Source: a virus. From it: a stretch of DNA of 37,273 bases. The stretch lies in the IMG/VR virus record IMGVR_UViG_3300025645_000190, positions 1-37,273 of that record; one strand, written 5' to 3'. Every line of letters begins with the position of its first letter. Positions within the stretch are counted from its first letter, which is position 1. This document shows, in pieces, positions 2,165-36,990 of the stretch. The notes under the pieces were generated by a model. It searched no databases and was not told where the DNA came from. It saw nothing but the letters and a program-made list of their open reading frames with translations. The position numbers and the translations under genes are program-made.

Positions 2165-3196
2165 TTATATCACCTTTTTGAAACCGAACGCTACTGCATC
2201 AAAAGCATCAACTCCGGTAGTATTATCTTGTATTCTAATAATTAATTGTTCTTTTGATCCTGCTCTTAATCTAACTCCCCAAGGAAGTCCAAACATTTCA
2301 GAAAAGTCTAAAACAGGTATATAACCTTCCGAGTTACCAGAAGCATTTGCAATTCTAAGGGCATCATTAGAATTACCAAAACTAGGCTTTCCTTGACATA
2401 ATCTTAAAAAATCAAAGTTAGTTTTTAAGGCATTTCCTATTATTATTTCTCCGTTATCTAAATCAGAGTATATAAGTTGACAGCCATTAGTAAGACTTGT
2501 TATATTCCCAAACTTATCTGCTGTTGCATTTACATCTGCAATTCTTATAGACAATGAATCTATGAACTTGTCCACAGTAGAATCAGCCTTTATAGTAAAA
2601 TCTACAAATCCTGCAGAAGCATTAACTTTCATATCAGTACTTCCTGTAGAATCTACAAAAAACTCTTGAATAGGTATTAATATCGTCTTATCTTCTGATG
2701 ATGGTATTCTTTGATCTATTACTTTTAATGCATTGAATTCATTAACTTTAGTTAAATTTCCTAGTCCTGTACCGTCAGCTATATTTACAGTATTGTTAGT
2801 TAGCATTACTAATAGTTCTTTTATTTGTCCGAATTCTTCTTTTATTTCGTTTATATCAGATCTTCTTAAAGTTACAGGTAAGTCGAAATTATCTGGTATA
2901 TTAGTTATGATAGGATTTTCTGCGCTACCTAGTCCAGTTGTTCCAGAAGTAATTTCTATTTGAGAAGGGAAAAATCCTTTTATTAAATCTGTACCATCAG
3001 ATATACCTAAATCTACACTTCCATCATTTACGACGACATTTCCTGATCCTATTTCAGTTACAATGTTATCTGAAGCTGCCCAAAGTAAATAGTCTGTAGT
3101 AGGTATCGTATATGTTACAGGACTTGCAGGTATAGTGGTACCTGTATCTGCTATTGCTATTGAACTTCCTGTAGTATTTTTTAGTATCTTGCTCAT
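2165..3196 (-). CDS. Two-part structural protein with internal DGTG signature
   Basis: 343 aa. The N-terminal part (about 1-90) contains TTIPASPVTYTIPTTDYLLW and then DLIKGFFPSQ, a pattern I associate with phage structural proteins but cannot name. A short helical linker (about 108-135) precedes VNIADGTGLGNLTKVNEFNA, the same signature that opens the neighbouring genes, followed by a beta-rich body to the C-terminus. So a family unit has been placed behind an extra N-terminal domain. The ATG directly follows the stop of the gene at 3197. Confidence 0.85.
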   Translation of the reverse strand: MSKILKNTTGSSIAIADTGTTIPASPVTYTIPTTDYLLWAASDNIVTEIGSGNVVVNDGSVDLGISDGTDLIKGFFPSQIEITSGTTGLGSAENPIITNIPDNFDLPVTLRRSDINEIKEEFGQIKELLVMLTNNTVNIADGTGLGNLTKVNEFNALKVIDQRIPSSEDKTILIPIQEFFVDSTGSTDMKVNASAGFVDFTIKADSTVDKFIDSLSIRIADVNATADKFGNITSLTNGCQLIYSDLDNGEIIIGNALKTNFDFLRLCQGKPSFGNSNDALRIANASGNSEGYIPVLDFSEMFGLPWGVRLRAGSKEQLIIRIQDNTTGVDAFDAVAFGFKKVI

Positions 3197-3676
3197 TTAG
3201 TCAGTTCCTTGTAACTCTAATCCGCCTACTGCATTCTTTGCAGAACCGTTTATTATTCTCATTGCTAATTGTTTTGCTGTTGCAACACTCCAATTAACTG
3301 TAAATTCACCACCTGTAGATGATATTATACTAACTACACCTAAAGATGTCAAGTTAATCCCGTTTCCATCGTGAGAAAGTACTTCTATATCAAATGTTGA
3401 TGCATTTTGAACCGAGATAAAAACTCTAGTTACTGTTGCATTATTTATATAAACATATCTTCCAGATATATTAGAAGGAACTCCTTCACATTCTAGATAT
3501 GCATTAGGGGCTACATTCCCCCCTTTACCATACCCAAATCCGGGAGCTGCTGACGTAGCTACTAATTGAACTATTTCATCAATAGCCTCTTTAGTATCTT
3601 CAGCTATAAGACCAGAATCTGTGTTATCATATGGTACTTGAGTAGCTACTGGTGTAAATTCATCCCTTTTACTCAT
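3197..3676 (-). CDS. Fibre-like protein with YDNTDSGL repeat
   Basis: 159 aa. Residues 16-38 hold YDNTDSGLIAEDTKEAIDEI, the repeat widely found in phage tail fibres and also present five times in the 1131-aa fibre at 13543-16938. The rest is a predicted beta-sandwich (GRYVYINNATVTRVFIS, then TFDIEVLSHDG). The start overlaps the stop of the upstream gene as TAATG, so translation is coupled. Probably a small fibre or baseplate-associated subunit. Confidence 0.82.
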   Translation of the reverse strand: MSKRDEFTPVATQVPYDNTDSGLIAEDTKEAIDEIVQLVATSAAPGFGYGKGGNVAPNAYLECEGVPSNISGRYVYINNATVTRVFISVQNASTFDIEVLSHDGNGINLTSLGVVSIISSTGGEFTVNWSVATAKQLAMRIINGSAKNAVGGLELQGTD

Positions 3677-25047: not shown

Positions 25048-25889
25048 TATCTTAACTTCATTCCGCTAAGTATTTTTCTTTTTAATAAATTTCTTTCTGC
25101 TTCTTTTTCTCTATCTTCTAAAGATGTATCAGCTTCTGCCATATCCATAATAGCTTCTTTATCATCCAACATTGCTAACATATCAGCATCTCCTGCTTGA
25201 TTAGCTAAAGTTTCTTTTACTCTGTCATCTCTATTATTTCTCAGTCCTTCGTAGTATTTCTTGTCTGCTGCTAACTTATCCATCTTAGCTGGAGAATTTG
25301 CATAATCTTTTCTAGCTTGCATTTCACCCATCATGACATTTTCATCTTCAGAAGATTGTCCAGTTGGAGATGCTTCTGCTAACTGTGAAAATAATGCTAA
25401 GGGTCCACCTAATGCTAACCCTGCTGCTTTACCAGCTCCCATTTTTCCTACTTTAGATCCTAGTTTACCAAGTAGACTCTTTAAACCTTGTTTCTTGTTT
25501 ATAGGAGTTTTTTTAGATAATGCTTGATTATCCATAGCATTTTTCATACTACCTAAATCAAATTCTTTTACCTTATTACCAACATCACTAATTAACTCTG
25601 GAGATCTTTTTAAATCACTACCTCTACTGATAGCTTTATCCATGAGTTCTTTACCTCTCATGCTTTTATCCATTGCTACTTTCTTTTGAAAATCATCACC
25701 TGATATAGATTTACCAAGAGTCTTCTCAAGGTCTTTAATTCTATCAGCTTCAACATTCTTTGAAATATCATCAACATCTATATTATTCATAGAATCCATG
25801 ATAGCTGTTGCATCTGGATCTAATTGTCTAAGCTTAGGTTCTGTTGAACCCATTCTTTTTAATAGTTTACTAAAATCATTATCATCCAT
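25047..25889 (-). CDS. Hypothetical protein, first gene of the head operon
   Basis: 280 aa, GGAGGG ribosome site. Mostly helical and charged, with one glycine/alanine-rich hydrophobic stretch at about 148-172 (GKMGAGKAAGLALGGPLALF). Highly charged ends and a possible membrane-active segment recall internal virion or DNA-ejection proteins of short-tailed phages, but there is no sequence proof. It lies directly behind a late promoter. Confidence 0.75.
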   Translation of the reverse strand: MDDNDFSKLLKRMGSTEPKLRQLDPDATAIMDSMNNIDVDDISKNVEADRIKDLEKTLGKSISGDDFQKKVAMDKSMRGKELMDKAISRGSDLKRSPELISDVGNKVKEFDLGSMKNAMDNQALSKKTPINKKQGLKSLLGKLGSKVGKMGAGKAAGLALGGPLALFSQLAEASPTGQSSEDENVMMGEMQARKDYANSPAKMDKLAADKKYYEGLRNNRDDRVKETLANQAGDADMLAMLDDKEAIMDMAEADTSLEDREKEAERNLLKRKILSGMKLR

Positions 25890-25919
25890 TATCCCTCCAG
25901 ATATATAAAGATGTACAAT

Positions 25920-25936
25920 ATATAGTTGTTAAATTT
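25920..25936 (-). promoter_or_regulatory. Late promoter element, copy 4
   Basis: Identical 17-bp element on the minus strand, 30 bases from the ATG of the 280-aa gene; it would start the terminase-side late operon. Confidence 0.7.
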
Positions 25937-26059
25937 ATGCGTTTTGTTTACAGAATAATCTTGTATTTGAATAATTTTAAGTAGTTGCGTTTTTGAATAG
26001 CTTTCCACTACCCTTATATACATAAAGATAATTGAAAAACCATTAATCTTATCTTAAGT

Positions 26060-26210
26060 TACCGATTAAAGGCGATAGGTTATTAACCCCAATATATCCT
26101 TGTAGTGTAGGCCTTCCGCTGGACTCTTCTGAGTGTCGAGTATCCAGTAAGCGACTTTCCTCACGCTTCCCTTCGGTCTTAACCTATTTCACGGTCCTAG
26201 ACTACAATTA
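26060..26210 (-). ncRNA. Structured noncoding RNA with own sigma70 promoter
   Basis: The region has no gene on either strand but is clearly structured. The start predicted from the promoter is near 26210. CCTAGACTACAA (26196-26207) and TTGTAGTGTAGG (26100-26111) form a 12-bp stem with one mismatch that closes the RNA. Inside lies CTGGA/TCCAG (26119-26147) with a nested ACTC/GAGT hairpin. TAACCTAT (26180-26187), inside the stem, is complementary to ATAGGTTA (26075-26082), outside it, giving a pseudoknot. The 3' end is not marked by a clean terminator. Alternatives: a long leader of the late operon. Confidence 0.6.
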
Positions 26211-26216
26211 GTATTA

Positions 26217-26244
26217 ATTATACAGAAATATAATAATATGTCAA
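26217..26244 (-). promoter_or_regulatory. Consensus sigma70 promoter of the structured RNA
   Basis: On the minus strand a perfect TTGACA (26244-26239) and a perfect TATAAT (26222-26217) are 16 bases apart. It is the only perfect sigma70 promoter seen on the minus strand and points into the structured region. Confidence 0.75.
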
Positions 26245-26258
26245 ATTAAATTAATTGT

Positions 26259-26287
26259 TTGACAAGAAGAAATAATACTGTTAATAT
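26259..26287 (+). promoter_or_regulatory. Rightward early promoter
   Basis: TTGACA, 17 bases, TAATAT, upstream of the first rightward gene. It is back-to-back with the RNA promoter at 26217-26244. The expected start falls at or next to the ATG at 26293, so the transcript may be leaderless. Confidence 0.65.
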
Positions 26288-26292
26288 TTATT

Positions 26293-26496
26293 ATGGGCAA
26301 AAGAGACGGTAAGAAAATTATAGAAACTATGGGCTACGTTATAGTAGCTCAGGTTCCTATGATTATGACATTTGAAGAAGATAAAGCTGCTTTCATAATA
26401 GAACATCTTGGTAACTCTATTGAAAGAGCTTATGATGTTATAGATATGTTTGGAGATAGAGGTGGAGATTTTGATCCCTTTGGAGATGAGGGGTGA
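26293..26496 (+). CDS. First rightward gene, hypothetical
   Basis: 67 aa. Basic start (MGKRDGKK), a hydrophobic centre (GYVIVAQVPMIMTF), and an acidic, glycine-rich tail (FGDRGGDFDPFGDEG). No ribosome site lies before the ATG, which is about 6 bases after the -10 box; leaderless translation or a later start (M13) are the alternatives. No family recognised. Confidence 0.55.
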   Translation: MGKRDGKKIIETMGYVIVAQVPMIMTFEEDKAAFIIEHLGNSIERAYDVIDMFGDRGGDFDPFGDEG

Positions 26497-26530
26497 TAAA
26501 CTTTATCTTATATTACAATTTAACATTCTT

Positions 26531-26559
26531 TCAAATGTATGCTAATGTGGGAGTATAAT
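26531..26559 (+). promoter_or_regulatory. Possible weak promoter
   Basis: A perfect TATAAT at 26554-26559 with only a poor -35 (TCAAAT at 17 bases). The GTG start of the next gene is 6 bases downstream. Confidence 0.35.
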
Positions 26560-26564
26560 TAAGG

Positions 26565-27011
26565 GTGACGGATATCAAAAACTCCCAGATTTTTAATGTT
26601 GATAACATACGCAAAGTGACAGATGTCCGTAACCTTAACTCTGTAGACCTAACAATCACTTTAATATGGTATCCCGGCTATTCTATATTTAGAGAACAAT
26701 ACTCGACAGGAAATTATGAATTGATAGGAAATATACTAAGAGATTTAGCAATTTCTTATGAAACTATGTCATTATGGCTACTTAGAGGTACATATGAGAG
26801 GTATCTATCCTCAATATTAGATGAAGACTACGCAGATATGATGTTAGATAATACTATTTACGATAAACACTTTACTATATTACGAGGATGTAAGTTATCA
26901 TATAAACTATTTTATAAAGACATTTTATATGTGTATAAAGACGGTAGAGTGTTAGTTTCTAATAGTTTAGAAGCAAAAAAAGCATTTAGAGACATAAGGG
27001 GTATAAAATGA
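26565..27011 (+). CDS. Hypothetical protein, GTG start
   Basis: 148 aa. An in-frame stop at 26556 excludes a longer form, so the start is the GTG at 26565 or later. No ribosome site precedes it, and it is 6 bases after TATAAT. The beginning has two similar units, TDIKNS and TDVRNL. The body is helical and aromatic (RDLAISYETMSLWLLRGTYE, DKHFTILRGCKLSYKLFYKD). No family recognised. It overlaps the next gene by ATGA. Confidence 0.65.
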   Translation: MTDIKNSQIFNVDNIRKVTDVRNLNSVDLTITLIWYPGYSIFREQYSTGNYELIGNILRDLAISYETMSLWLLRGTYERYLSSILDEDYADMMLDNTIYDKHFTILRGCKLSYKLFYKDILYVYKDGRVLVSNSLEAKKAFRDIRGIK

Positions 27012-29492: not shown

Positions 29493-29764
29493 AAATATAT
29501 GGAATTATAATTTTATTAGTATTAAATGTAGTGGGATGGTATAATTACTATAAAGAAGCAAACGATAAACATTCGGTAAGTGTAAATGATTTTTATTATA
29601 TTGCAGACAAAGACAAGTGTGTAAGAACGTGTGGAGTAATATTTTTTGATTATAGTGCAGTAAGATACACTGAAGGAAAACCATTTAACACTGTATCATG
29701 TGAATGTAAGAGAACATCTGGAGCAGCAACATATTTTAAACACTTAGAGCTTATAGAAGAATAA
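29489..29764 (+). CDS. Membrane-anchored cysteine protein, 91 aa
   Basis: One N-terminal membrane helix at about 4-18 (YGIIILLVLNVVGWY) followed by a soluble domain with four cysteines (C48, C52, C74, C76) that could form disulfides outside the cytoplasm. This suits an envelope protein, for example for superinfection exclusion; that role is a guess. It is the last gene before the iteron region. Confidence 0.65.
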   Translation: MKIYGIIILLVLNVVGWYNYYKEANDKHSVSVNDFYYIADKDKCVRTCGVIFFDYSAVRYTEGKPFNTVSCECKRTSGAATYFKHLELIEE

Positions 29765-29874
29765 TGTGTATTAAACCAAAATAGGTCCAGTGTGTGTTCT
29801 CAGCATAGAATGACCAATATCACTCGCTTAGAACCACATACCCCCCCTATGCCTAAATGAAATATGTTTATAAA

Positions 29875-29904
29875 GAATATACGCACCTATGAATATACGC
29901 ACCT
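29875..29904 (+). repeat. Iteron copies 1 and 2 (GAATATACGCACCTA)
   Basis: Two tandem copies, GAATATACGCACCTAT then GAATATACGCACCTAC, spaced by 16 bases (start to start). Confidence 0.8.
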
Positions 29905-29964
29905 ACTAAATAGATATTGTTTGTCAACTTAATTAATCTTAAGTATGTATCTATTACATGGTAA

Positions 29965-30001
29965 GGAATATACGCATCTATGTTGCCAACTATCTGTGGC
30001 T
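29965..30001 (+). repeat. Iteron copy 3 with dyad
   Basis: GGAATATACGCATCT (29965-29979) is followed at 29984-30001 by TGCCA-N8-TGGCT. Confidence 0.75.
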
Positions 30002-30023
30002 ATCATGTGACCCAACAGCATCA

Positions 30024-30055
30024 GGAATATACGCACCTGCCAACTATATGTGGCT
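30024..30055 (+). repeat. Iteron copy 4 with dyad
   Basis: GGAATATACGCACCT (30024-30038) runs straight into TGCCA-N8-TGGCT (30038-30055). Confidence 0.75.
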
Positions 30056-30256
30056 TACACAATGGTGGCTAGAATACATTTAAAATTATTATATGATACT
30101 AGGCAAGGGTAAAATCTAAATGGATTACAGACTAGGCTGAGAGTCTTAGAACATTGTCAAGAAAAAAATACAGAAATATACAGAAAAGAAAAAGCTTGAC
30201 TAAACAAATTCTATTGGTGTCAACTAAAGTTTCCTTAAGAAAATAATATTACATGA

Positions 30257-30272
30257 CTTAACAAATGTTAAG
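30257..30272. promoter_or_regulatory. Palindrome overlapping a promoter, possible operator
   Basis: CTTAACA-AA-TGTTAAG is a perfect dyad whose right arm overlaps the -35 region of the promoter at 30271. A longer pair, ACATGAC (30251-30257) and GTCATGT (30285-30291), brackets the same promoter. Confidence 0.45.
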
Positions 30273-30299
30273 GACACAATCAATGTCATGTGCTATAAT
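30271..30299 (+). promoter_or_regulatory. Promoter with extended -10
   Basis: AGGACA, 17 bases, TGC-TATAAT, about 38 bases before the ATG at 30337. Confidence 0.6.
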
Positions 30300-30336
30300 A
30301 AATATAGAGATTAACGCAACGCAATAAAGGGATAAC

Positions 30337-30552
30337 ATGAAAAACATTATTATGATTCAAAGTCCAATTAAATTCGAAAAGGGTTCAGCTTTTGAGGTTA
30401 AAGCCTCTTTAGTGATTAAAGTAAATGATACTTATAAGACTATTTACGGACTGGGCGATACTAAAGGAGACGCAAGTCTATGGTTGATGGATAATTTAAC
30501 GGAGCTTCACAAGTCTTTACAAACTGAAAACTTTTACACTGGAGTATGGTAA
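30337..30552 (+). CDS. Hypothetical protein, 71 aa
   Basis: AAAGGGATAAC precedes the ATG. A beta-alpha pattern (FEVKASLVIKVNDTYKTIYG, then DASLWLMDNLTELHKSL) and the end TENFYTGVW; the NFYTG word also occurs in the gene at 32630. No family recognised. Confidence 0.65.
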   Translation: MKNIIMIQSPIKFEKGSAFEVKASLVIKVNDTYKTIYGLGDTKGDASLWLMDNLTELHKSLQTENFYTGVW

Positions 30553-30553
30553 C

Positions 30554-30724
30554 ATGAAACACTTAGTAACTACTATCACAAGAAATAGCCCTAAACAACT
30601 TTTATTGGCTTTAAAGTATGACTTATATACTAAAACAAGTCCTCTTTATACTATAGAGTTTAAGACTTCTAAGAACGTTAGAAACAATATGCCTATTTAT
30701 ACGGCTGTAATAAGGTTAAAATGA
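30554..30724 (+). CDS. 56-aa basic protein
   Basis: Starts one base after the previous stop (TAACATG) and runs to TGA at 30724. Lysine- and threonine-rich (MKHLVTTITRNSPKQLLLAL onward). Its size and position fit the operon, but no family is recognised. Confidence 0.5.
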   Translation: MKHLVTTITRNSPKQLLLALKYDLYTKTSPLYTIEFKTSKNVRNNMPIYTAVIRLK

Positions 30725-30743
30725 AACAAGATAAAGGATCAAA

Positions 30744-31019
30744 ATGAAACAATTAGTAGTAAACAATCAAGGACTTAAGACAGAGAAAAGAAAACTTAAG
30801 CAAAGTGAAGAAAGTATCAAGTGGAAGGCAAATTTGCCCTACTTAGACCAAAACAGAGAGGAAAAAAGCTTTGTTGGTTACGGAGTTACTGAAAAGGAGG
30901 CAATTAGTTCAGCATATGGAAATGCTTTATATGAGCAAAGAAGATTATATAATTTTTATGTTACGTCGTCACAAATTGATAACCATACGTTGAAATTTGA
31001 TAATTCTAGTATCAGTTAA
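30744..31019 (+). CDS. Hypothetical protein, 91 aa
   Basis: AAAGGATC ribosome site. Begins with lysine-rich KRKLKQSEESIKWKA, continues with a GYGVTEKEAISSAYGNALYE helix, which resembles double-stranded-RNA-binding-like beta-alpha units found in small phage proteins; that is only a suggestion. It is the last gene before the bidirectional terminator. Confidence 0.6.
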   Translation: MKQLVVNNQGLKTEKRKLKQSEESIKWKANLPYLDQNREEKSFVGYGVTEKEAISSAYGNALYEQRRLYNFYVTSSQIDNHTLKFDNSSIS

Positions 31020-31077
31020 AAACAAGTTAATACATTATTTAAAGTCTCACTTCCGAGCGTTCTAAATTGTCCCATAC

Positions 31078-31110
31078 AAAAATGCCTCATATCTGAGGCG
31101 TTCTTTTTTA
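31078..31110. terminator. Bidirectional intrinsic terminator
   Basis: GCCTCA-TATC-TGAGGC stem with T-runs on both sides (TTCTTTTTT on plus; ATTTTTGT on minus). It ends the rightward operon from 30337 and, on the minus strand, the RNA from the late element at 31370. Confidence 0.88.
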
Positions 31111-31368
31111 TACACAAATTGGTTAGGATTTTGGCATAACTCTCTTTTACTAGTATAAGGTCACTAGCCGAAAGTCATGCTAAATAGATTATGTTTACTT
31201 TTTCTATTTGGCTTTTGCTGTTAAGCAATTTATCCAAGATCTTAAAGCGTTCCGCTCAAGTCTTTTGAAGGTCGTTTCTTGAGTACACAGCTTTTAAACT
31301 TCATGTGCCTAGTCGAAAAATCATGTTGCCAATCAGAATCATTTTTTAACGGTCTCTAAAATCTCTTA
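31085..31368 (-). ncRNA. Late-promoter-driven structured noncoding RNA
   Basis: No coding gene follows the leftward late element at 31370, yet about 280 bases later there is a terminator on the same strand. In between, the minus strand can form GCACA/TGTGT, CTCAAG/CTTGAG (31281-31253), AGCG/CGCT, GCTT/AAGC and CTTT-CGG-CTAGT/ACTAG-T-AAAG (about 31173-31144). Promoter, dense hairpins and terminator together define an RNA gene. Known families such as phi29 pRNA or tRNA are not recognised. Confidence 0.6.
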
Positions 31369-31369
31369 A

Positions 31370-31386
31370 ATATAGTTGTTAAATTT
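31370..31386 (-). promoter_or_regulatory. Late promoter element, copy 5 (noncoding RNA)
   Basis: Identical 17-bp element on the minus strand, embedded in the rightward gene half, with no protein gene downstream. Confidence 0.65.
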
Positions 31387-31458
31387 ATCTTACGTATGTT
31401 TTCCGTAACATATAATTATTTTCATTTTTTGTCTTATATCAATCATTTACATTTAAAA

Positions 31459-31524
31459 TGTATCTGTTTAAATTGTCGAGGCTCAAACAGATACAATTAA
31501 AAATGATGCAGTAGCGTTTGCATC
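31459..31524. other. Two tandem strong hairpins
   Basis: TGTATCTGTTT (31459-31469) pairs perfectly with AAACAGATACA (31485-31495), giving an 11-bp stem and a 15-base loop. GATGCA (31505-31510) pairs with TGCATC (31519-31524). Neither has a U-run on either strand, so they are not terminators. They may be protein sites or single-strand structures for replication start. Confidence 0.55.
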
Positions 31525-31636
31525 TAGTCCAATATTAGCTACTAAATAAATTATAGCACGATAAGAGTATGAAAGCAAGGAATATTTTAAGTAAAGTGTA
31601 AATTTTACAATGAGTAAAAAATATACAAAAAGATAA

Positions 31637-31668
31637 GGAATATACGCACTTGCCATAGATAGTTGGCA
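31637..31668 (+). repeat. Iteron copy 5 with dyad
   Basis: GGAATATACGCACTT (31637-31651) followed by TGCCA-N8-TGGCA (31651-31668), here a perfect dyad whose core is reversed relative to copies 3 and 4. Confidence 0.75.
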
Positions 31669-31789
31669 GTCCAGATTGCTCCAGAATAGCTTTAAAAGTT
31701 TTATGAGTAGTAAGTCATGGATAACATTTAAACAGATTTTAGACTATGTGCAGAGTCGATTAAGGTTATAAATAAAAGTTAGTTACACA

Positions 31790-31804
31790 GGAATATACGC
31801 AACT
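31790..31804 (+). repeat. Iteron copy 6
   Basis: GGAATATACGCAACT, about 78 bases upstream of the next -35 box and without a dyad. Confidence 0.75.
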
Positions 31805-31881
31805 AAAGAAGATTTAAGTTGACAGCGGAAAAGTTACGGATGTCAAGGAAAAAATAAAAAGAATATAAGTGATAATAAGTA

Positions 31882-31910
31882 TTGACACGCTGTGTTATAA
31901 CTGATATAAT
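31882..31910 (+). promoter_or_regulatory. Consensus early promoter
   Basis: Perfect TTGACA, 17 bases ending in TGA, perfect TATAAT. It is followed by the leader ATATGTAGGAAC that recurs at other early promoters. Confidence 0.85.
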
Positions 31911-31941
31911 ATATGTAGGAACTTAACGAGGAGTTAAAAAA

Positions 31942-32268
31942 ATGAATAAAGCACAAAAACTGCATAAAATAGCTAAAGAGGTAAAAGCATTTAAAACAGA
32001 GGACATTGAAAATAACAAAAAAGCGGTGGATTATTTTACTAAGGATTTAGAAAAGGTTGCTCGAAGTGGTAAATTCTCAAAACGTACAACTTGTCTAGTT
32101 AAAAAAGATGGATTATCAAACTCAAAATATCATTATCAAACAGAAAATGATGGCGGTGGTTTTGAAATAACTAATATTAATCATGTTATAAGAGATATAA
32201 AAGCAATGGGATTTAAAGTTGATTTTTTATTACAAGGTGGGTATTGCCCCTTGGTAATATCATGGTAG
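31942..32268 (+). CDS. Hypothetical protein, 108 aa
   Basis: GAGGAG ribosome site. Helical, basic N-terminus (AQKLHKIAKEVKAFKTED) and a C-terminal alpha/beta part (NHVIRDIKAMGFKVDFLLQG). It starts the first transcript after control region B. Its 3' end contains the promoter of the next gene. No family recognised. Confidence 0.7.
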   Translation: MNKAQKLHKIAKEVKAFKTEDIENNKKAVDYFTKDLEKVARSGKFSKRTTCLVKKDGLSNSKYHYQTENDGGGFEITNINHVIRDIKAMGFKVDFLLQGGYCPLVISW

Positions 32269-32279
32269 TATGTTATAAT
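32251..32279 (+). promoter_or_regulatory. Early promoter inside the upstream gene's end
   Basis: TTGGTA, 17 bases ending in TGT, TATAAT. It begins the 46-bp block (32267-32312) that is repeated at 32588-32633. Confidence 0.7.
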
Positions 32280-32308
32280 TAATTAAGAACTAAACAAGGA
32301 GTTAAACA

Positions 32309-32563
32309 ATGAAAAAATCACAATTTAAAAAATTCTATACAAGGTTGAGAATGATTCGCAATTCTAAAATGGTTGGAACTCATGGTAGTTATAGCGACTT
32401 AGTGAAGGAATTTAATGTCACTATGTGTTTTATCCGTAATTTGAATGATATGAGTAAAAAGTCACCTAGATTAGTGTACGGAAAATATACGGAAAAATAT
32501 CAAGTAAATGCTGAGTATGAAGCAAACGCAAATAGTTACTATGAAAAAATGATAGGAGCATAA
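32309..32563 (+). CDS. Hypothetical basic protein, 84 aa
   Basis: AAGGAG ribosome site. Very basic at the start (KKSQFKKFYTRLRMIRNSKM), with a possible helix-turn-helix-like stretch (SYSDLVKEFNVTMCFIRNLN, residues 28-47). A DNA-binding regulator is possible, not shown. Confidence 0.65.
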   Translation: MKKSQFKKFYTRLRMIRNSKMVGTHGSYSDLVKEFNVTMCFIRNLNDMSKKSPRLVYGKYTEKYQVNAEYEANANSYYEKMIGA

Positions 32564-32571
32564 AAAAGTCC

Positions 32572-32600
32572 TTGACACAATTAACGCAGTATGTTATAAT
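32572..32600 (+). promoter_or_regulatory. Consensus early promoter
   Basis: Perfect TTGACA, 17 bases ending in TGT, perfect TATAAT, followed by the repeated leader TAATTAAGAACTAAACAAGG. Confidence 0.85.
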
Positions 32601-32629
32601 TAATTAAGAACTAAACAAGGAGTTAAACA

Positions 32630-32935
32630 ATGAGTGACGTAACAAGAAAAATGATTAACTTATTAGATAAAGTAGTATCTATTGAACGTGTAACCACTAA
32701 TCACTATCATGCAAATTTAGATAATGGCTTCACGATAGACTTTAAACTAGTAATTAAAAATTATCGTGTTGAGCTTGATCTTCTAATGAACAATAGAAAT
32801 TTTTACACTGGCAATGCACTTACGGAAGATACTATTAAAGTATTTGAAAACGTGAGAAATTTACACTATCAATTGACTTGTAAAAAGCAAGATGAAACAA
32901 TGAATAAAAATTCTAATTTATGGAGCGAACTATGA
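32630..32935 (+). CDS. Hypothetical protein, 101 aa
   Basis: AAGGAG ribosome site in the repeated leader. Alternating strands (FTIDFKLVIKNYRVELDLLM) and an NFYTG turn that is shared with the gene at 30337. Unknown function. The end overlaps the next start as ATGA. Confidence 0.65.
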   Translation: MSDVTRKMINLLDKVVSIERVTTNHYHANLDNGFTIDFKLVIKNYRVELDLLMNNRNFYTGNALTEDTIKVFENVRNLHYQLTCKKQDETMNKNSNLWSEL

Positions 32936-33123
32936 AAGTAAAAGAAAAAAAGAAATTAGAACAATTAGCAAGTGACTTGAATAAATTAATTATAAAGTAT
33001 CATGGTTTTGTTGAGGTTGAAGAGGCAAGGGATGATCTATGCAATATTAGATGGATTTTAGAAAATAGATCAAGGGAAGCCTCTTATGACCCTATAACTA
33101 AAAAATTATCTTATGAGGATTAA
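32932..33123 (+). CDS. Hypothetical helical protein, 63 aa
   Basis: I chose ATG 32932 over the in-frame ATG 32920, because GGAG lies 6 bases before it and it forms the usual ATGA overlap. Charged helices (KEKKKLEQLASDLNKLIIKY, then CNIRWILENRSREA). Function unknown. Confidence 0.6.
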   Translation: MKVKEKKKLEQLASDLNKLIIKYHGFVEVEEARDDLCNIRWILENRSREASYDPITKKLSYED

Positions 33124-33128
33124 GATAG

Positions 33129-33143
33129 GTAAAAATTACACAG
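33129..33143. repeat. GTAAAAATTACACAG site, copy 1
   Basis: Contains the dyad GTAA-N3-TTAC, 16-30 bases upstream of the next promoter. Copies at 34113 and 35734 hold the same place. Confidence 0.5.
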
Positions 33144-33158
33144 GTAGTCAAATAATTG

Positions 33159-33186
33159 TTGATATATATTGAAAATGTGATATAAT
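33159..33186 (+). promoter_or_regulatory. Early promoter
   Basis: TTGATA, 16 bases ending in TGA, TATAAT, then the ATATGTAGGAACTAAACAAG leader. Confidence 0.7.
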
Positions 33187-33238
33187 ATATGTAGGAACTA
33201 AACAAGTCGATGGACTGACACAAAAAAAGGAATTAAAA

Positions 33239-33541
33239 ATGAGCGCTAAAGGATATTGTTTACAAGGAAAAAAAAGACAAGGCATAATTACAATTTTTAC
33301 GGATGATAACGGTTTAAAAACTGTAGATTATAGAGGAACAGACGTAGTTGAGGAAATTGGATATAACAGAGTGAGATTGAACACAAACGGATGGAAAACG
33401 GTGACAAGTAAAGTTGTAATGAATAGATACTTTTCTCAAAAAAACTTAGACGTTAGGGTTTTTCAAAAAGATTTTACTTGGTATGTTATTCAAGGAAATA
33501 ATACTTTTGAGTATGTTGATGGTAAAGTCATAGAATTGTAA
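33239..33541 (+). CDS. Hypothetical basic protein, 100 aa
   Basis: AAGGAATT before the ATG. Strand-rich (QGIITIFTDDNGLKTVDYRG, then KDFTWYVIQGNNTFEYVDGK). The repeated tryptophan and lysine content suggests a small beta-barrel-like fold. No family recognised. Confidence 0.65.
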   Translation: MSAKGYCLQGKKRQGIITIFTDDNGLKTVDYRGTDVVEEIGYNRVRLNTNGWKTVTSKVVMNRYFSQKNLDVRVFQKDFTWYVIQGNNTFEYVDGKVIEL

Positions 33542-33556
33542 AAAATATAATAAGGG

Positions 33557-33585
33557 TTGATTTATATAAAAAAATATGTAATAAT
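33557..33585 (+). promoter_or_regulatory. Early promoter
   Basis: TTGATT, 17 bases ending in TGT, AATAAT. The predicted start lies inside or next to the unusual AAAGGAGGTGATC. Confidence 0.55.
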
Positions 33586-33587
33586 TA

Positions 33588-33600
33588 AAAGGAGGTGATC
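33588..33600 (+). promoter_or_regulatory. Full-length anti-SD match without a start codon
   Basis: AAAGGAGGTGATC matches the 3' end of 16S rRNA over 13 bases, far longer than any other site here, yet no start codon lies within 5-12 bases. AAAAG and CTTTT around it could form a weak hairpin. Confidence 0.5.
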
Positions 33601-33631
33601 TTTTTATCTTACTAACAGTGGAGGAAAACTT

Positions 33632-33706
33632 ATGCAAGATTTAGCTTTAATAATATGTATAGGTTTTCTTATGGCTTGGTATAAACTTTTTAAAATGATG
33701 AGGTAA
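33632..33706 (+). CDS. 24-aa membrane microprotein
   Basis: GGAGGAAAAC precedes the ATG. One hydrophobic helix (LALIICIGFLMAWYKLF), ending in KMMR. It is followed one base later by the next ATG. Could be a small membrane regulator. Confidence 0.45.
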   Translation: MQDLALIICIGFLMAWYKLFKMMR

Positions 33707-33707
33707 C

Positions 33708-33881
33708 ATGAAAATTTGGCATGATCAAAAATTAGAAAAAGGTACTCGTGTAGAGTATTTTAAAACTAACAAAATTTATGTAGTAACAAAATGTGTATAT
33801 GAAGGGACTTTCGATAACAGAGAGCATTATACTCTAACTGTAAAGCTTGAGAAAAAAGACAAGAAAGAAACATTACAATGA
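33708..33881 (+). CDS. 57-aa basic protein
   Basis: Starts right after the microprotein and ends by an ATGA overlap. Strand-rich, SH3-like pattern (KGTRVEYFKTNKIYVVTKCV, HYTLTVKLEKKD). No family recognised. Confidence 0.55.
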   Translation: MKIWHDQKLEKGTRVEYFKTNKIYVVTKCVYEGTFDNREHYTLTVKLEKKDKKETLQ

Positions 33882-34099
33882 TATTGACAATCGTAACAAG
33901 TGTTTTTTTTAGTGTTGTAATTACTTTATTGATAGTATATCTATTTTATAGACAGATAGTTAAAAAAAATAATAAAGCTAAAATAGAAGCTGAAAAAGAA
34001 TATGTAAAAATAATGGAACAATTATACTCAGAAATTAATGAAAATGATTCAAGTAATGACATTCTAAGTACATTAGAAAAAGGGAAGTTACTACAATAA
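33878..34099 (+). CDS. Single-span membrane protein, 73 aa
   Basis: A long hydrophobic helix at 2-24 (LTIVTSVFFSVVITLLIVYL) followed by a basic stretch (RQIVKKNNKAK) and an acidic helix. The layout (helix out, charged tail in) resembles small i-spanin- or regulator-type membrane proteins. Function unknown. Confidence 0.6.
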   Translation: MILTIVTSVFFSVVITLLIVYLFYRQIVKKNNKAKIEAEKEYVKIMEQLYSEINENDSSNDILSTLEKGKLLQ

Positions 34100-34112
34100 A
34101 TTTTTAATGATT

Positions 34113-34127
34113 GTAAAAATTACATAG
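34113..34127. repeat. GTAAAAATTACATAG site, copy 2
   Basis: Same motif as 33129 with one change, about 35 bases before the -35 box at 34163. Confidence 0.5.
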
Positions 34128-34162
34128 TTTAAGTTAATTCTTAAGCTATGTTATAAAAGTCA

Positions 34163-34191
34163 TTGACACAATACATTAAAAATGTTATAAT
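34163..34191 (+). promoter_or_regulatory. Consensus early promoter
   Basis: Perfect TTGACA, 17 bases ending in TGT, perfect TATAAT, then ATATGTAGGAACTAAACGAG. Confidence 0.85.
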
Positions 34192-34220
34192 ATATGTAGG
34201 AACTAAACGAGGAGAAAAAA

Positions 34221-34568
34221 ATGAGTTGGAACGATAAAGCGTATGACAATTGGAAATTATCAAGTCCACCAGAATGGGAGAATGAAATTGAGGTATTTAA
34301 AGCCGAGAATTATCAAGCTTATAGTACTTGTGAAGATGATATTCAAAAGTTTGAAGATGCTATGGAGTCGGTGCAATATCATGTGATTCAACCCGAGTAT
34401 GATTCAAGAGAAGAATACCTTGAAGAGTGTGAAGATAATTTTGCAGGTGATTTTGACATGTATAGCGACGAGTACAGAGCTATAGAAGCCTTTCAAGAAA
34501 ATGAGTATGGTTTATATTTAGATGCAGTAGAAAACGGTTATAAAGGTAAATTTAAGAGGAGATTTTAA
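34221..34568 (+). CDS. Very acidic protein, 115 aa
   Basis: GAGGAG ribosome site. Almost every third residue is D or E (EWENEIEVFKAEN, EYDSREEYLEECEDNFAGDF, SDEYRAIEAFQENEYG), ending in a basic KGKFKRRF tail. Such charge is typical of DNA-mimic proteins that phages use against restriction or nucleases, but charge alone is not proof. C37 and C71 are the only cysteines. Confidence 0.65.
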   Translation: MSWNDKAYDNWKLSSPPEWENEIEVFKAENYQAYSTCEDDIQKFEDAMESVQYHVIQPEYDSREEYLEECEDNFAGDFDMYSDEYRAIEAFQENEYGLYLDAVENGYKGKFKRRF

Positions 34569-34569
34569 T

Positions 34570-34752
34570 ATGCAATATTTATGTCAAAATGGAGAGGATT
34601 ACGACGAGTGTAAAGAGACCGTAGAAATTAAAGGTAGCGTTTGCAATTATTGTGCCGAAAAAGCTTATGACTTATACTTAGAAGATTTTTACGGTGGATC
34701 AAGTCCAATTACTTTAGATGAACAAATGGTAGAAGCGAGAAAATTAAAATGA
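34570..34752 (+). CDS. 60-aa protein with four cysteines
   Basis: Starts one base after the acidic gene's stop. C5, C14, C25 and C28 could bind one zinc (CQNGEDYDEC, then VCNYCAEKAY). It overlaps the zinc-ribbon gene as ATGA. Unknown function. Confidence 0.6.
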   Translation: MQYLCQNGEDYDECKETVEIKGSVCNYCAEKAYDLYLEDFYGGSSPITLDEQMVEARKLK

Positions 34753-34874
34753 GTGATGAAAGAAAAATAGTTATAAAGTGTACTGAATGTCATGTAATTA
34801 TAGGTTTTGGTTTAGATCATTGTCCTCACTGTGGTAATGATGAAGATTATATGATTGAAGAAATTGTAAAATAA
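34749..34874 (+). CDS. 41-aa zinc ribbon
   Basis: CTEC and CPHC, 13-14 residues apart (KCTECHVIIGFGLDHCPHCG), are a classic zinc ribbon. Coupled to the previous cysteine protein by an ATGA overlap. Such tiny ribbons in phages may touch RNA polymerase or nucleic acid; target unknown. Confidence 0.65.
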   Translation: MSDERKIVIKCTECHVIIGFGLDHCPHCGNDEDYMIEEIVK

Positions 34875-34877
34875 AGC

Positions 34878-34906
34878 TTGACACGATTAACGCAGTATGT
34901 TATAAT
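34878..34906 (+). promoter_or_regulatory. Consensus early promoter
   Basis: Perfect TTGACA, 17 bases ending in TGT, perfect TATAAT, then ATTATAGGAGG. It shares the spacer ATTAACGCAGTATGT with the promoter at 32572. Confidence 0.85.
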
Positions 34907-34923
34907 AATTATAGGAGGTAAAC

Positions 34924-35070
34924 ATGGAAAAAGAAATTGAGAAATTAGAAGAGAGTATTAAATCAATGCAAGAAATGTATGATAATGATACTTATACAGG
35001 CAAAAGGTCAGATTTATTATGCGATATTACTATGAAAACAATTAGATTAAAAAAATTAAAAGGAGAGTAA
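34924..35070 (+). CDS. 48-aa coiled-coil protein
   Basis: AGGAGG ribosome site. Two charged helices (EKEIEKLEESIKSMQEMYDN, then LCDITMKTIRLKKLKGE). Its organisation resembles the small gene at 37023, which has the same leader. Unknown function. Confidence 0.55.
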   Translation: MEKEIEKLEESIKSMQEMYDNDTYTGKRSDLLCDITMKTIRLKKLKGE

Positions 35071-35071
35071 A

Positions 35072-35263
35072 ATGGAACAATTAGAAGAGTTACAAAAAAG
35101 ATCGGCGGAATTAAATAAGTATTTGAAGCATTTAATCGAGGATAAGTCTGACTTAAACGCTACAGAATGGGATAATATGTATCAGTTAACTTTTAAAGAA
35201 GAGGCGCATATTGCGTGGAGAATTAGAACGATTAAATATTTAAACAAGGTGAATTTTCAATGA
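35072..35263 (+). CDS. Helical protein, 63 aa
   Basis: AAGGAGAG lies in the end of the previous gene. Helical hairpin (EQLEELQKRSAELNKYLKHL, then FKEEAHIAWRIRTIKYLNKV). Overlaps the next start as ATGA. No family recognised. Confidence 0.6.
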   Translation: MEQLEELQKRSAELNKYLKHLIEDKSDLNATEWDNMYQLTFKEEAHIAWRIRTIKYLNKVNFQ

Positions 35264-35385
35264 TAGAAAGATTTATTATAGTAATGTCAGGTGTAGTAAT
35301 TACAGGATTATTAATGGGTATAGTTACGCTTTTTATTAATGATAAGATATTAAAAAGAAGAAAAAGGAAAAAAAATGATAGGTAA
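35260..35385 (+). CDS. 41-aa membrane protein with basic tail
   Basis: One hydrophobic helix at about 4-28 (FIIVMSGVVITGLLMGIVTL) and a strongly basic end (KILKRRKRKKND). Overlaps both neighbours. Typical small membrane protein; function unknown. Confidence 0.55.
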   Translation: MIERFIIVMSGVVITGLLMGIVTLFINDKILKRRKRKKNDR

Positions 35386-35737
35386 ACAAGTTCAAGTATA
35401 TTTTAACTTACATAAAAAATGCTATAGCGTTAGAGATAAAAAGACTCGACTCGTAATAGCTCATGTAAACAAAATTAGTTTAGGAGATGTTAGCTTCAAA
35501 GTTAGCGAAAAAGGTAGACAGCGAGTTTTAGAAGAGCAAAGAAAAAATGTTCATGCTATTGTTGAAGGTACAATTTTGAGCTATGACGCATTTAAAAGAG
35601 ATATGAAAGGAGTTACTTACAACCCTTATATGTATTCAACTTTTATAACAAGAGCTGATAAACAGCCTATAACAAGCTCTAATGAGGTTTACATGCTTGT
35701 TACTAATGAAAAGAGAGCTAGAATATTTGCTATGTAA
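35375..35737 (+). CDS. Conserved phage protein next to Gp88
   Basis: 120 aa, AAAAGGAAA before the ATG. The sequence QVYFNLHKKCYSVRDKKTRL followed by GRQRVLEEQRKNVHAIVEG looks like a small protein I have seen in phages and prophages of Proteobacteria, without a known function. It has one clear globular, basic domain. It precedes the Gp88-family gene. I cannot supply a family name. Confidence 0.65.
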   Translation: MIGKQVQVYFNLHKKCYSVRDKKTRLVIAHVNKISLGDVSFKVSEKGRQRVLEEQRKNVHAIVEGTILSYDAFKRDMKGVTYNPYMYSTFITRADKQPITSSNEVYMLVTNEKRARIFAM

Positions 35738-35748
35738 AAATTACACAG
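35734..35748. repeat. GTAAAAATTACACAG site, copy 3
   Basis: Identical to the site at 33129. It overlaps the stop of the gene at 35375 and lies 24 bases before the -35 box at 35773. Confidence 0.5.
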
Positions 35749-35772
35749 TATTAGATAAGAGTAAAAAAGTTA

Positions 35773-35801
35773 TTGACACGACGCATAAAGTTTGATATAC
35801 T
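35773..35801 (+). promoter_or_regulatory. Early promoter
   Basis: Perfect TTGACA, 17 bases ending in TGA, TATACT. The transcript would begin near 35808, which fixes the start of the next gene. Confidence 0.8.
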
Positions 35802-35835
35802 TAATAAGAGGAAACAAACTAACAGAAGGAATCAA

Positions 35836-36525
35836 ATGAGAAATCTATTAACAACGCAAAACAGTAAGACAAGTAAGGGTGAATCAAAAGGTTATCTGAC
35901 AGGAATTTTATACCTTGCACCATCGACAAGCGTGGAAGGAATAAATACTTGTAAATTTGCATCAAAAGGTTGTAAAGAAGCTTGTTTGTATACAGCAGGA
36001 CGTGGAAAATTTAGTAATGTAAAAAATGCAAGAATTAGCAAAACAGAATTATTTAGAGATGATAGAAATTATTTTATGCAATCACTTAAATGGTCAATCG
36101 AAAAAGTTTTAAGGAAAGCAAAAAGAGAAGAGTTGACTCCAGTGATTCGTTTAAACGGTACTTCAGATATTGAATGGCATAACATTTTAATCGATGGTAA
36201 GAATATATTTGATCATTTTTCAGATGTTCAATTCTATGACTACACTAAGAATCACTTAAGGTTTAAAGATAACCTTCCTAAAAACTATCACTTAACTTTT
36301 TCTATGTCGGAAAATAAAGCTAATAATATTCATGCAATTAACATTTTAGGAGAGAAGAAAGCCAATGTTGCAGTTGTATTTAAAGAGTTGCCTGAAACTT
36401 ATAGGGGTTTTAAAGTTGTAAATGGAGACCTAACAGACTTAAGATTTTTAGACGAGAAAAATGTTATTGTTGGATTATTAGCAAAAGGAGATGCAAAAAA
36501 AGATTTGTCAGGCTTTGTGAAATAA
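35836..36525 (+). CDS. Gp88-family (DUF7227-like) phage protein
   Basis: 229 aa from ATG 35836, which has AGAAGGA upstream; a longer frame from 35773 would start inside the promoter. Residues 39-50 (CKFASKGCKEAC) give C-x6-C-x3-C, followed by LYTAGRG. RLNGTSDIEW (about 105-114), FYDYTKN, LTFSMSEN and VVNGDLTD follow, the typical order of this family. The cysteines may hold an iron-sulfur cluster or zinc. The biochemical role of the family is not established to my knowledge. Confidence 0.8.
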   Translation: MRNLLTTQNSKTSKGESKGYLTGILYLAPSTSVEGINTCKFASKGCKEACLYTAGRGKFSNVKNARISKTELFRDDRNYFMQSLKWSIEKVLRKAKREELTPVIRLNGTSDIEWHNILIDGKNIFDHFSDVQFYDYTKNHLRFKDNLPKNYHLTFSMSENKANNIHAINILGEKKANVAVVFKELPETYRGFKVVNGDLTDLRFLDEKNVIVGLLAKGDAKKDLSGFVK

Positions 36526-36530
36526 AAATA

Positions 36531-36556
36531 TTGACAAAATTAAAATATTATATAAC
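36531..36556 (+). promoter_or_regulatory. Weak early promoter
   Basis: Perfect TTGACA but only 14 bases to TATAAC; the following ATTATAGGAG leader matches other copies. Probably weaker or activated. Confidence 0.4.
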
Positions 36557-36574
36557 AATTATAGGAGATAAAAA

Positions 36575-36829
36575 ATGACAAGTAATCAGATTAAAAAATT
36601 AGTAAAAGGTAGAATTTTTTCAGTGATATTCACAAAGAAAAATGGAGATGATAGAAAAATGTTATGTAGATTAGACGTTAAAAAGCATTTAAAGGGAGGC
36701 GAAAAAAAGTATGATACGGAGGCTTTAAACTATCTAACAGTATACAGTCTTGATTCTAAGGGTTATAGGACTATAAATTTGAATACTCTTAAGCAAATTA
36801 GAGCAAACGGAAAGGTTATACAATTATGA
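36575..36829 (+). CDS. Hypothetical SH3-like basic protein, 84 aa
   Basis: AGGAGATAA before the ATG. The pattern IFSVIFTKKNGDDRKMLCRL, then YLTVYSLDSKGYRTINLNTL resembles small phage proteins with a short beta-barrel that are frequent beside Gp88 genes (residues F15-R27 and Y70-L78 as core strands). Name unknown. Overlaps the next start as ATGA. Confidence 0.65.
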   Translation: MTSNQIKKLVKGRIFSVIFTKKNGDDRKMLCRLDVKKHLKGGEKKYDTEALNYLTVYSLDSKGYRTINLNTLKQIRANGKVIQL

Positions 36830-36990
36830 AATATGGAATTTTTATAGATGCTACAGGTAAAGGAGACTTTAAAAAATCTGAAAAGTTCCCTGTATTTCTT
36901 GACAAAAAAGTTGCAGAATTATATTTAGATAGGTATGTAAATATTACAGGTATTAAAGAGTATGTAGTTTTAAAGCTTGACTCGAAGTAA
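36826..36990 (+). CDS. 54-aa hypothetical protein
   Basis: Begins in the stop of the previous gene and reads MKYGIFIDATGKGDFKKSEK, ending GIKEYVVLKLDSK. Beta-alpha-beta pattern. Its last codons contain the -35 box of the next promoter. No family recognised. Confidence 0.55.
   Translation: MKYGIFIDATGKGDFKKSEKFPVFLDKKVAELYLDRYVNITGIKEYVVLKLDSK

Follow-up and report, generated by a model that had tools for sequence, protein, structure and literature searches.

The window, the whole stretch of DNA analysed here (37,273 bases, the complete record G000), comes from a tailed phage, of whose genome it is a fragment. Its minus strand encodes a T4-type terminase and a P22-type portal at 20.6-24.2 kb, and the plus strand from 26.3 kb onward is filled with small ORFs. 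Among these small genes strong promoter-like sequences are frequent and terminators scarce; near-perfect promoter-like sequences of the form TTGACA-17-TGnTATAAT follow one another through 31882-36977, and a Gp88-type protein (PF17338) is encoded at 35773-36525. Searching IMG/VR with the portal gave 23 loci, and the terminase as query brought up no relatives. Of the relatives used, the most complete is G007, at 84,758 bp and with a terminal repeat of 123 bp; it has genes for a family A DNA polymerase, a DnaB-like primase-helicase, endonuclease VII and RIIA. No tRNA genes were found in the window or in G007. Another relative, G010, has a portal 70% identical to that of the window, and the G+C content of the window, G007 and G010 genomes is 32-34%. 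By terminase, the nearest named phage is a Silvanigrella phage, but at 30% identity this match is too distant to name a host. The G007 polymerase shares 45% identity with its counterpart in Flavobacterium phages, a match that points away from the Silvanigrella phage.

Two gene-free blocks among the small genes, at 29765-30336 (block 1) and 31020-31941 (block 2), carry six copies of a direct repeat, all on the plus strand, with the consensus (G)GAATATACGCA-NCT. Block 1 contains copies 1 to 4, at 29874-29888 (AGAATATACGCACCT), 29890-29904 (TGAATATACGCACCT), 29965-29979 (GGAATATACGCATCT) and 30024-30038 (GGAATATACGCACCT). Block 2 contains copy 5 at 31637-31651 (GGAATATACGCACTT), which is conserved in G007, G024 and G005, and copy 6 at 31790-31804 (GGAATATACGCAACT), which is conserved in G007. 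A scan of the window with GGAATATACGCACCT, allowing up to three mismatches, returned these six plus-strand matches, one exact and five with one mismatch, while 100 dinucleotide shuffles gave a mean of 0.60 GGAATATACGCACCT matches and reached six in 0/100. The core GAATATACGCA occurs six times on the plus strand and not at all on the minus strand, and the reversed-pattern control gave 0. All six copies lie outside ORFs, as defined with a filter on ribosome-binding site and length, and stand 141-452 nt before the next ORF, at irregular spacings of 16, 75, 59, 1613 and 153 bp. The preliminary description of this DNA had reported six iterons of one orientation confined to two gene-free blocks, and this is borne out: further copies running through coding regions, which it had named as counter-evidence, are absent, since the core is found nowhere else in the window. 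The variant characteristic of G010, GAATATCCGTA, has one isolated copy in the window, inside the portal gene at 21717. Block 1 itself begins with a conserved 5' part that ends in a C-run; this stretch, 29811-29890, ends in TAGAACCAC(A/C)TACCCCCC and is also present in G007, G024 and G005.

Three of the copies are accompanied by dyads on the plus strand. Those of the form TGCCA-N8-TGGC after copy 3 (29984-30000) and copy 4 (30038-30054) were read from the sequence, and the dyad after copy 5 (31651-31668), TGCCA-N8-TGGCA, forms a helix that we call P7 and that becomes CTGTC/GACAG in G005. Dyads were thus correctly noted at copies 3 to 5, but the full TGCCA-N8-TGGCA form is complete at copy 5 only, copies 3 and 4 having TGGCT. 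Copy 3 and its dyad are 4 nt apart, and at copies 4 and 5 repeat and dyad share one base; the copy 5 dyad is the inverse of the copy 3 and copy 4 dyads (94% and 89% complementary). Because of this inversion, dyad and repeat do not make one fixed unit. The TGCCA-N8-TGGC dyad is absent from copies 1, 2 and 6, and copy 6 is followed instead by a CAACT/AGTTG stem. In the window and its family, many copies have a hairpin directly after the core, with stems TGCCA/TGGCA, CAACT/AGTTG or CTGTC/GACAG. The mean folding energy at offset 9 in this family was -3.7 kcal/mol (p 0.0007; 11 independent copies, three orthologous copies having been dropped), and neither the 14 copies of the other lineages (p 0.85) nor the seven of G010 (p 0.43) showed enrichment at this offset. 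An earlier version of the test had given p 0.008 over 28 copies and p 0.0026 over the 17 copies of the window family plus G025, with no signal in G010 (p 0.28) or G026 (p 0.54). Against random placement, TGCCA/TGGCA near repeats was not significant in any of nine records (p 0.07-1.0). The dyads are therefore hairpins of the window family, one of them conserved beside the RNA described below, and lie outside the common site; since the hairpin signal is confined to this family, the common element is the core alone.

The repeats recur in other phages. Exact GAATATACGCA copies are present in G007 (3), G001 (3), G024 (3) and G005 (2), and those of G007, G024 and G005 occupy the same kind of gene-free stretch as in the window; G001, apparently another record of a phage like G007, was not taken as an independent case. 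The close relative G010 has seven same-strand copies of a variant, GAATATCCGNA, at 74623-76516, five in its two gene-free blocks and two inside a 95-aa ORF. These keep the layout of the window family, and on the other strand of G010, inside long genes, there is one GAATATACGAA and one GAATATCCGAA. Two pair scans of IMG/VR yielded nine distinct stretches, five of which were counted as arrays (L132, L125, L258, L266 and L267). The scans revealed arrays in G025 (3 copies), G028 (2), G026 (6, three with one mismatch) and G027 (3, one with a mismatch), of which G025 and G027 are related (portal E about 1e-171). Downstream of the array in L266, at 2851-3447, lies a gene for a Gp88-type protein 47% identical to one in G007. 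The copies of an array share one strand in each record, that of the next small gene where this is visible, and most are 114-520 nt upstream of the next gene. Copies inside ORFs are found in G010 (the two mentioned), G026 (one, in ORFs of 62-66 aa) and G025 (three, in a 43-aa ORF), and most others are outside. Copy number is 2-7 per record, and the spacing is irregular in relatives too. Among ORFs of at least 50 aa, no protein common to all array-bearing lineages was found in these incomplete records. The core is thus portable across phage lineages without a detected common protein.

Other candidate stretches were set aside. L257 lies inside a 697-aa ORF, and L255 and L256 are simple repeats of the TACGCATTGACGCATA type. 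From the genome scan, five of seven stretches (L260-L263 and L265) are in ORFs of at least 60 aa, L259 is a tandem array and L264 a 41-bp duplication. L254, another of the pair-scan stretches, has two GAATATACGCA copies 13 bp apart and outside ORFs (824-847) in a 40-kb contig and was also set aside; it is possibly real and may represent another array-bearing lineage. In L127 (CP017838.1), 10-mers recur 9,062 bases apart each time, a pattern suggestive of a duplication in that record. A single-match pattern scan gave at least 120 stretches, most of the matches listed holding one copy, and only clusters were pursued. GAATATMCGNA is present in 11 of 30 records, counting the single copy of G015, which stands beyond the portal gene and was treated as chance. 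Papers that matched GAATATACGC in a search of literature text were unrelated by title.

Block 2 also contains a conserved element that the preliminary description had missed, together with its second copy 5 kb upstream. Comparison of block 2 with G007, G024 and G005 identified conserved stretches at 31124-31430 (about 76%), within which there is no ORF of at least 60 aa; the next shared protein has 47-50% amino-acid identity, a different measure from the value for this region. The core of the structured-RNA candidate, RNA A, is at 31155-31430 on the plus strand. A terminator-like hairpin, readable on both strands (31081-31102), stands between RNA A and the upstream gene, and a promoter-like TTGGCA-17-TATAAG precedes RNA A on the plus strand (31131-31159). 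The latter was recognised by eye, was not reported by the promoter scan at its threshold, and is conserved in three relatives, with AAGGCA in G007. The 3' domain, also on the plus strand, comprises helix P5, TCTGTTT/AAACAGA (31463-31491), and helix P6 with a loop pseudoknot, GTAGC/GCTAC (31505-31542). In a hand-cut alignment, the helices of the core covary, from TTGCT/AGCAA to TAGCT/AGCTA in one case and from CTCAAG/CTTGAG to CTTGAG/CTCAAG to CTCGG/CCGAG in another. In the 3' domain of that alignment, TCTGTTT/AAACAGA changes to TCCCC/GGGGA, and the pseudoknot becomes GTAGGC/GCCTAC in relatives. RNAalifold on a longer alignment predicted 96 pairs; in 24, both partners have changed in one sequence or more. 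RNA A is represented by four independent sequences only. It is present at full length in 5 of 29 records, and nhmmer with four A copies found no further full copy among the matches listed. Block 2 thus looks to be largely an RNA gene.

RNA B lies at 26037-26201 on the plus strand, at the early/late divergence, preceded on the same strand by a promoter-like TTGAAT-16-TATATA (25993-26020, by eye; TTGACA-17-TATAGT in L133 and L135). We built a covariance model, R1, from the four A copies only, and it found B in the window (26014-26260, E 1.4e-7), G007 (4.4e-8) and G010 (1.2e-4), in L135, and more weakly in L140, L133 and G024. A 35-nt partial R1 match in G012 (E 4.9e-4) was not counted. A second model, R2, built from eight B copies, found A in return in the window, G005 and G024 (E 6.8e-11, 1.5e-9 and 6.2e-7) and in G007 (E 0.0045), and it also found a ninth B, in L136 (124 bits), that had not been used in model building. 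A and B are therefore homologous. RNA B, with 43-50% G+C against 32-34% in the three genomes named above, is present in 10 of 30 records; the absence of A or B from a record means little because short records are numerous and the G010 sequence is interrupted at block 2. A further 100 viral loci, 800 kb in all, gave no match at E up to 1, and G025-G028 none at E up to 0.001. The RNA B of G005 (L132, 6038-6235) is chimera-like, its 5' half resembling G024 and its 3' half L133 and L136, which suggests recombination inside the RNA gene.

Eight B copies aligned with plain MAFFT were examined at 29 hand-named pairs. In this set, 92.4% of cells were paired; shuffles gave 78.7%, none of the 500 reaching the observed value, and sliding the pairing gave 31.6-45.3%. 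Both sides had changed in 14 pairs, and the covariation score, 0.416, fell to 0.099 or less on sliding. Further pair types numbered 19 versus 15.7 in shuffles, a value reached by 42 of 500. The loop-loop helix was 83% paired, one of its six pairs being kept in only 2 of 8 copies. Over A and B together, helices P1, P3 and P4 occur in 9, 9 and 8 distinct versions (permutation p<=5e-5, on 11 of 13 copies, G024B and L136B being left out), the tested helices having been hand-picked from the same sequences as the test. The versions of the loop-loop contact, between the P3 and P4 loops, include UGAG/CUCA, GGAGU/ACUCC, UGGA/UCCA, GAUC/GAUC, UGAAG/CUUCA, UAGAG/CUCUA and UAAC/GUUA. A first test of this contact gave p 0.002 for Watson-Crick pairs and p 0.81 with G.U allowed, and a fixed-window test on nine versions gave p 2e-5, with the window set after the pairs had been seen. 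Paired positions in A and B thus covary, including those of the loop-loop contact. No long stop-free frame is common to the 13 copies. Folding energies were not lower than those of shuffles on the plus strand (z -0.53 for A, +0.29 for B) or the minus strand (z -0.79 and +0.69), and such ordinary energies would also fit conserved DNA elements, such as protein sites or cruciforms, in place of RNA. We consider that reading quite improbable: pairs change jointly over many stems, the loop-loop contact connects separate hairpins, and wobble counts favour the plus strand, G.T being tolerated (14) and A.C hardly (1).

A and B are apparently an undescribed structured RNA in two related versions. Rfam, including GOLLD, ROOL and OLE, gave only matches far below gathering score in window positions 29700-32000 and 25850-26600 at E up to 10, and no matches at gathering score in eight further loci, which supports the novelty of A and B and says nothing of their function. 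The RNA regions of the window and its relatives had no credible match among named phages, and three RNA B strings searched for in the literature were represented, among the matches listed, by a 10-base string only, in papers none of which was on phage by title. GOLLD, ROOL and OLE are large ornate RNAs of poorly known function with kissing loops, two of them phage- or prophage-borne (PMC12286853). A and B, as predicted, resemble them in being structured, phage-borne and equipped with a loop-loop contact. They differ in lacking an Rfam match, in a core of about 165-300 nt, in having two homologous copies per genome, and in an apparent lack of tRNA genes in the window and G007. Antiterminator leader RNAs such as HK022 put likewise come as a homologous pair of structured RNAs, one close to the beginning of each early block, as predicted for A and B; in contrast, the small genes of the window have many strong promoter-like sequences and few terminators.

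The preliminary description had regarded the iterated repeats as typical of a replication origin or a repressor switch. The more general view of a repeated cis-acting control-region site is supported because the copies share one strand, are gene-free, lie upstream of early-type genes, keep their layout and occur in unrelated phages. Iteron origins consist of direct repeats in gene-free, AT-rich DNA, and the repeats, copies of one asymmetric site in such DNA with a layout conserved in relatives, could be iterons for an initiator, with RNA A or AT-rich DNA opening the duplex or priming synthesis. The family A polymerase and primase-helicase of G007 do require an origin, and a diverged initiator would account for the G010 variant. 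However, the check for replication genes and an initiator, positive for these two G007 genes, disclosed no common initiator among ORFs of at least 50 aa in the incomplete records. The spacing is irregular, with 2-7 copies divided between blocks with intervening genes. The cumulative GC-skew minimum of G007, at 11,697, coincides with the transcription divergence and is 3.7-5.6 kb from its repeats (15.9-17.3 kb); since the skew tracks gene direction here, this argues only weakly one way or the other. An origin at the repeats is not supported, and we think it rather unlikely. The immunity switch fares worse. Stoperators of cluster A mycobacteriophages are asymmetric sites spread across the genome that serve the immunity repressor, and the window repeats, asymmetric, in one orientation and putatively bound by a regulatory protein, resemble them. 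Yet the window sites are limited to two blocks, the core is identical in unrelated phages, and no repressor was recognised among the proteins searched, which include a minority of the small ORFs; we hold operators or stoperators of a phage repressor to be very improbable.

The repeat might also work at the level of the transcript: a single-stranded box of 12 nt, in many cases with a hairpin after it, would be the target of an RNA-binding protein or a small RNA. Array copies read toward the next gene, most from 114-520 nt upstream, the 11 independent copies of the window family have their hairpin directly after the repeat, and in the RNAalifold prediction the core of copy 5 pairs with the conserved CGUA/UUCC stretch of RNA A. 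The letters of that pairing never vary, the hairpin enrichment does not extend to the other lineages or G010, and strong promoter-like sequences are often downstream of the repeats, so that we find a leader-RNA element unlikely. Promoters for a single-subunit or N4-type polymerase, a CRISPR-repeat mimic and ToxI-like antitoxin repeats were dropped, a supporting feature being absent in each case. The start-associated sequences (SAS/ESAS) of cluster K mycobacteriophages are a 13 bp asymmetric repeat of unknown function, in nearly all cases in one orientation and in the non-structural half, placed where the translation of many genes starts; imperfect inverted repeats, upstream and with a variable spacer, are attached to about half of the copies, and their consensus differs between subclusters (PMC3203893). 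The window repeats are similar in their single orientation and in that part of the copies have an inverted repeat. They differ from the SAS in that they occupy two leader blocks, away from translation starts and with over 100 nt to the next ORF, that their hairpin is downstream, and that their core is shared by unrelated phages.

We propose that the two blocks control the rightward half of a tailed phage, the early-type half with the small genes, and that this control region has two independent parts. The repeats would be asymmetric 11-15 nt recognition sites, oriented with the following genes, for a trans-acting factor that acts on early-gene expression. This putative factor is most likely host-encoded, or else exchanged among phages sharing hosts; a host factor is preferred because one core occurs in phages without a common protein, as far as the incomplete records extend, and is altered in a close relative. 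Block 2 would encode the structured non-coding RNA A, with its paralogue B at the early/late divergence. Each would have its own promoter-like sequence, three covarying hairpins and a loop-loop contact, and together they may constitute a new RNA family that acts either in trans or, as leaders, in cis. Computation establishes where the repeats lie and on which strand, that they recur, that A and B are homologous and that their pairs covary; that the RNAs are made, and that a host factor binds the repeats and serves early expression, is what the sequences suggest. On balance, we hold this two-part explanation, repeat sites for a trans-acting factor beside a structured RNA pair in an early control region, to be somewhat probable. 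That A and B are a new paired phage RNA family and the repeats conserved host-factor sites acquired separately by unrelated phages is a more tentative proposal, and by our estimate a somewhat unlikely one.

Since the repeats occur in unrelated viruses upstream of small genes, and beside a predicted structured-RNA gene, they mark an early-gene control region. If the proposal is true, lineages otherwise having little in common would share a handle on the host, and a repeat common to unrelated phages yet altered in a close relative would offer a direct route to the factor recognising it and to the host. Few structured phage RNAs are known, and a family with two paralogues in each genome and covariation in its loop-loop contact would extend them; its members are also short enough for structural study.
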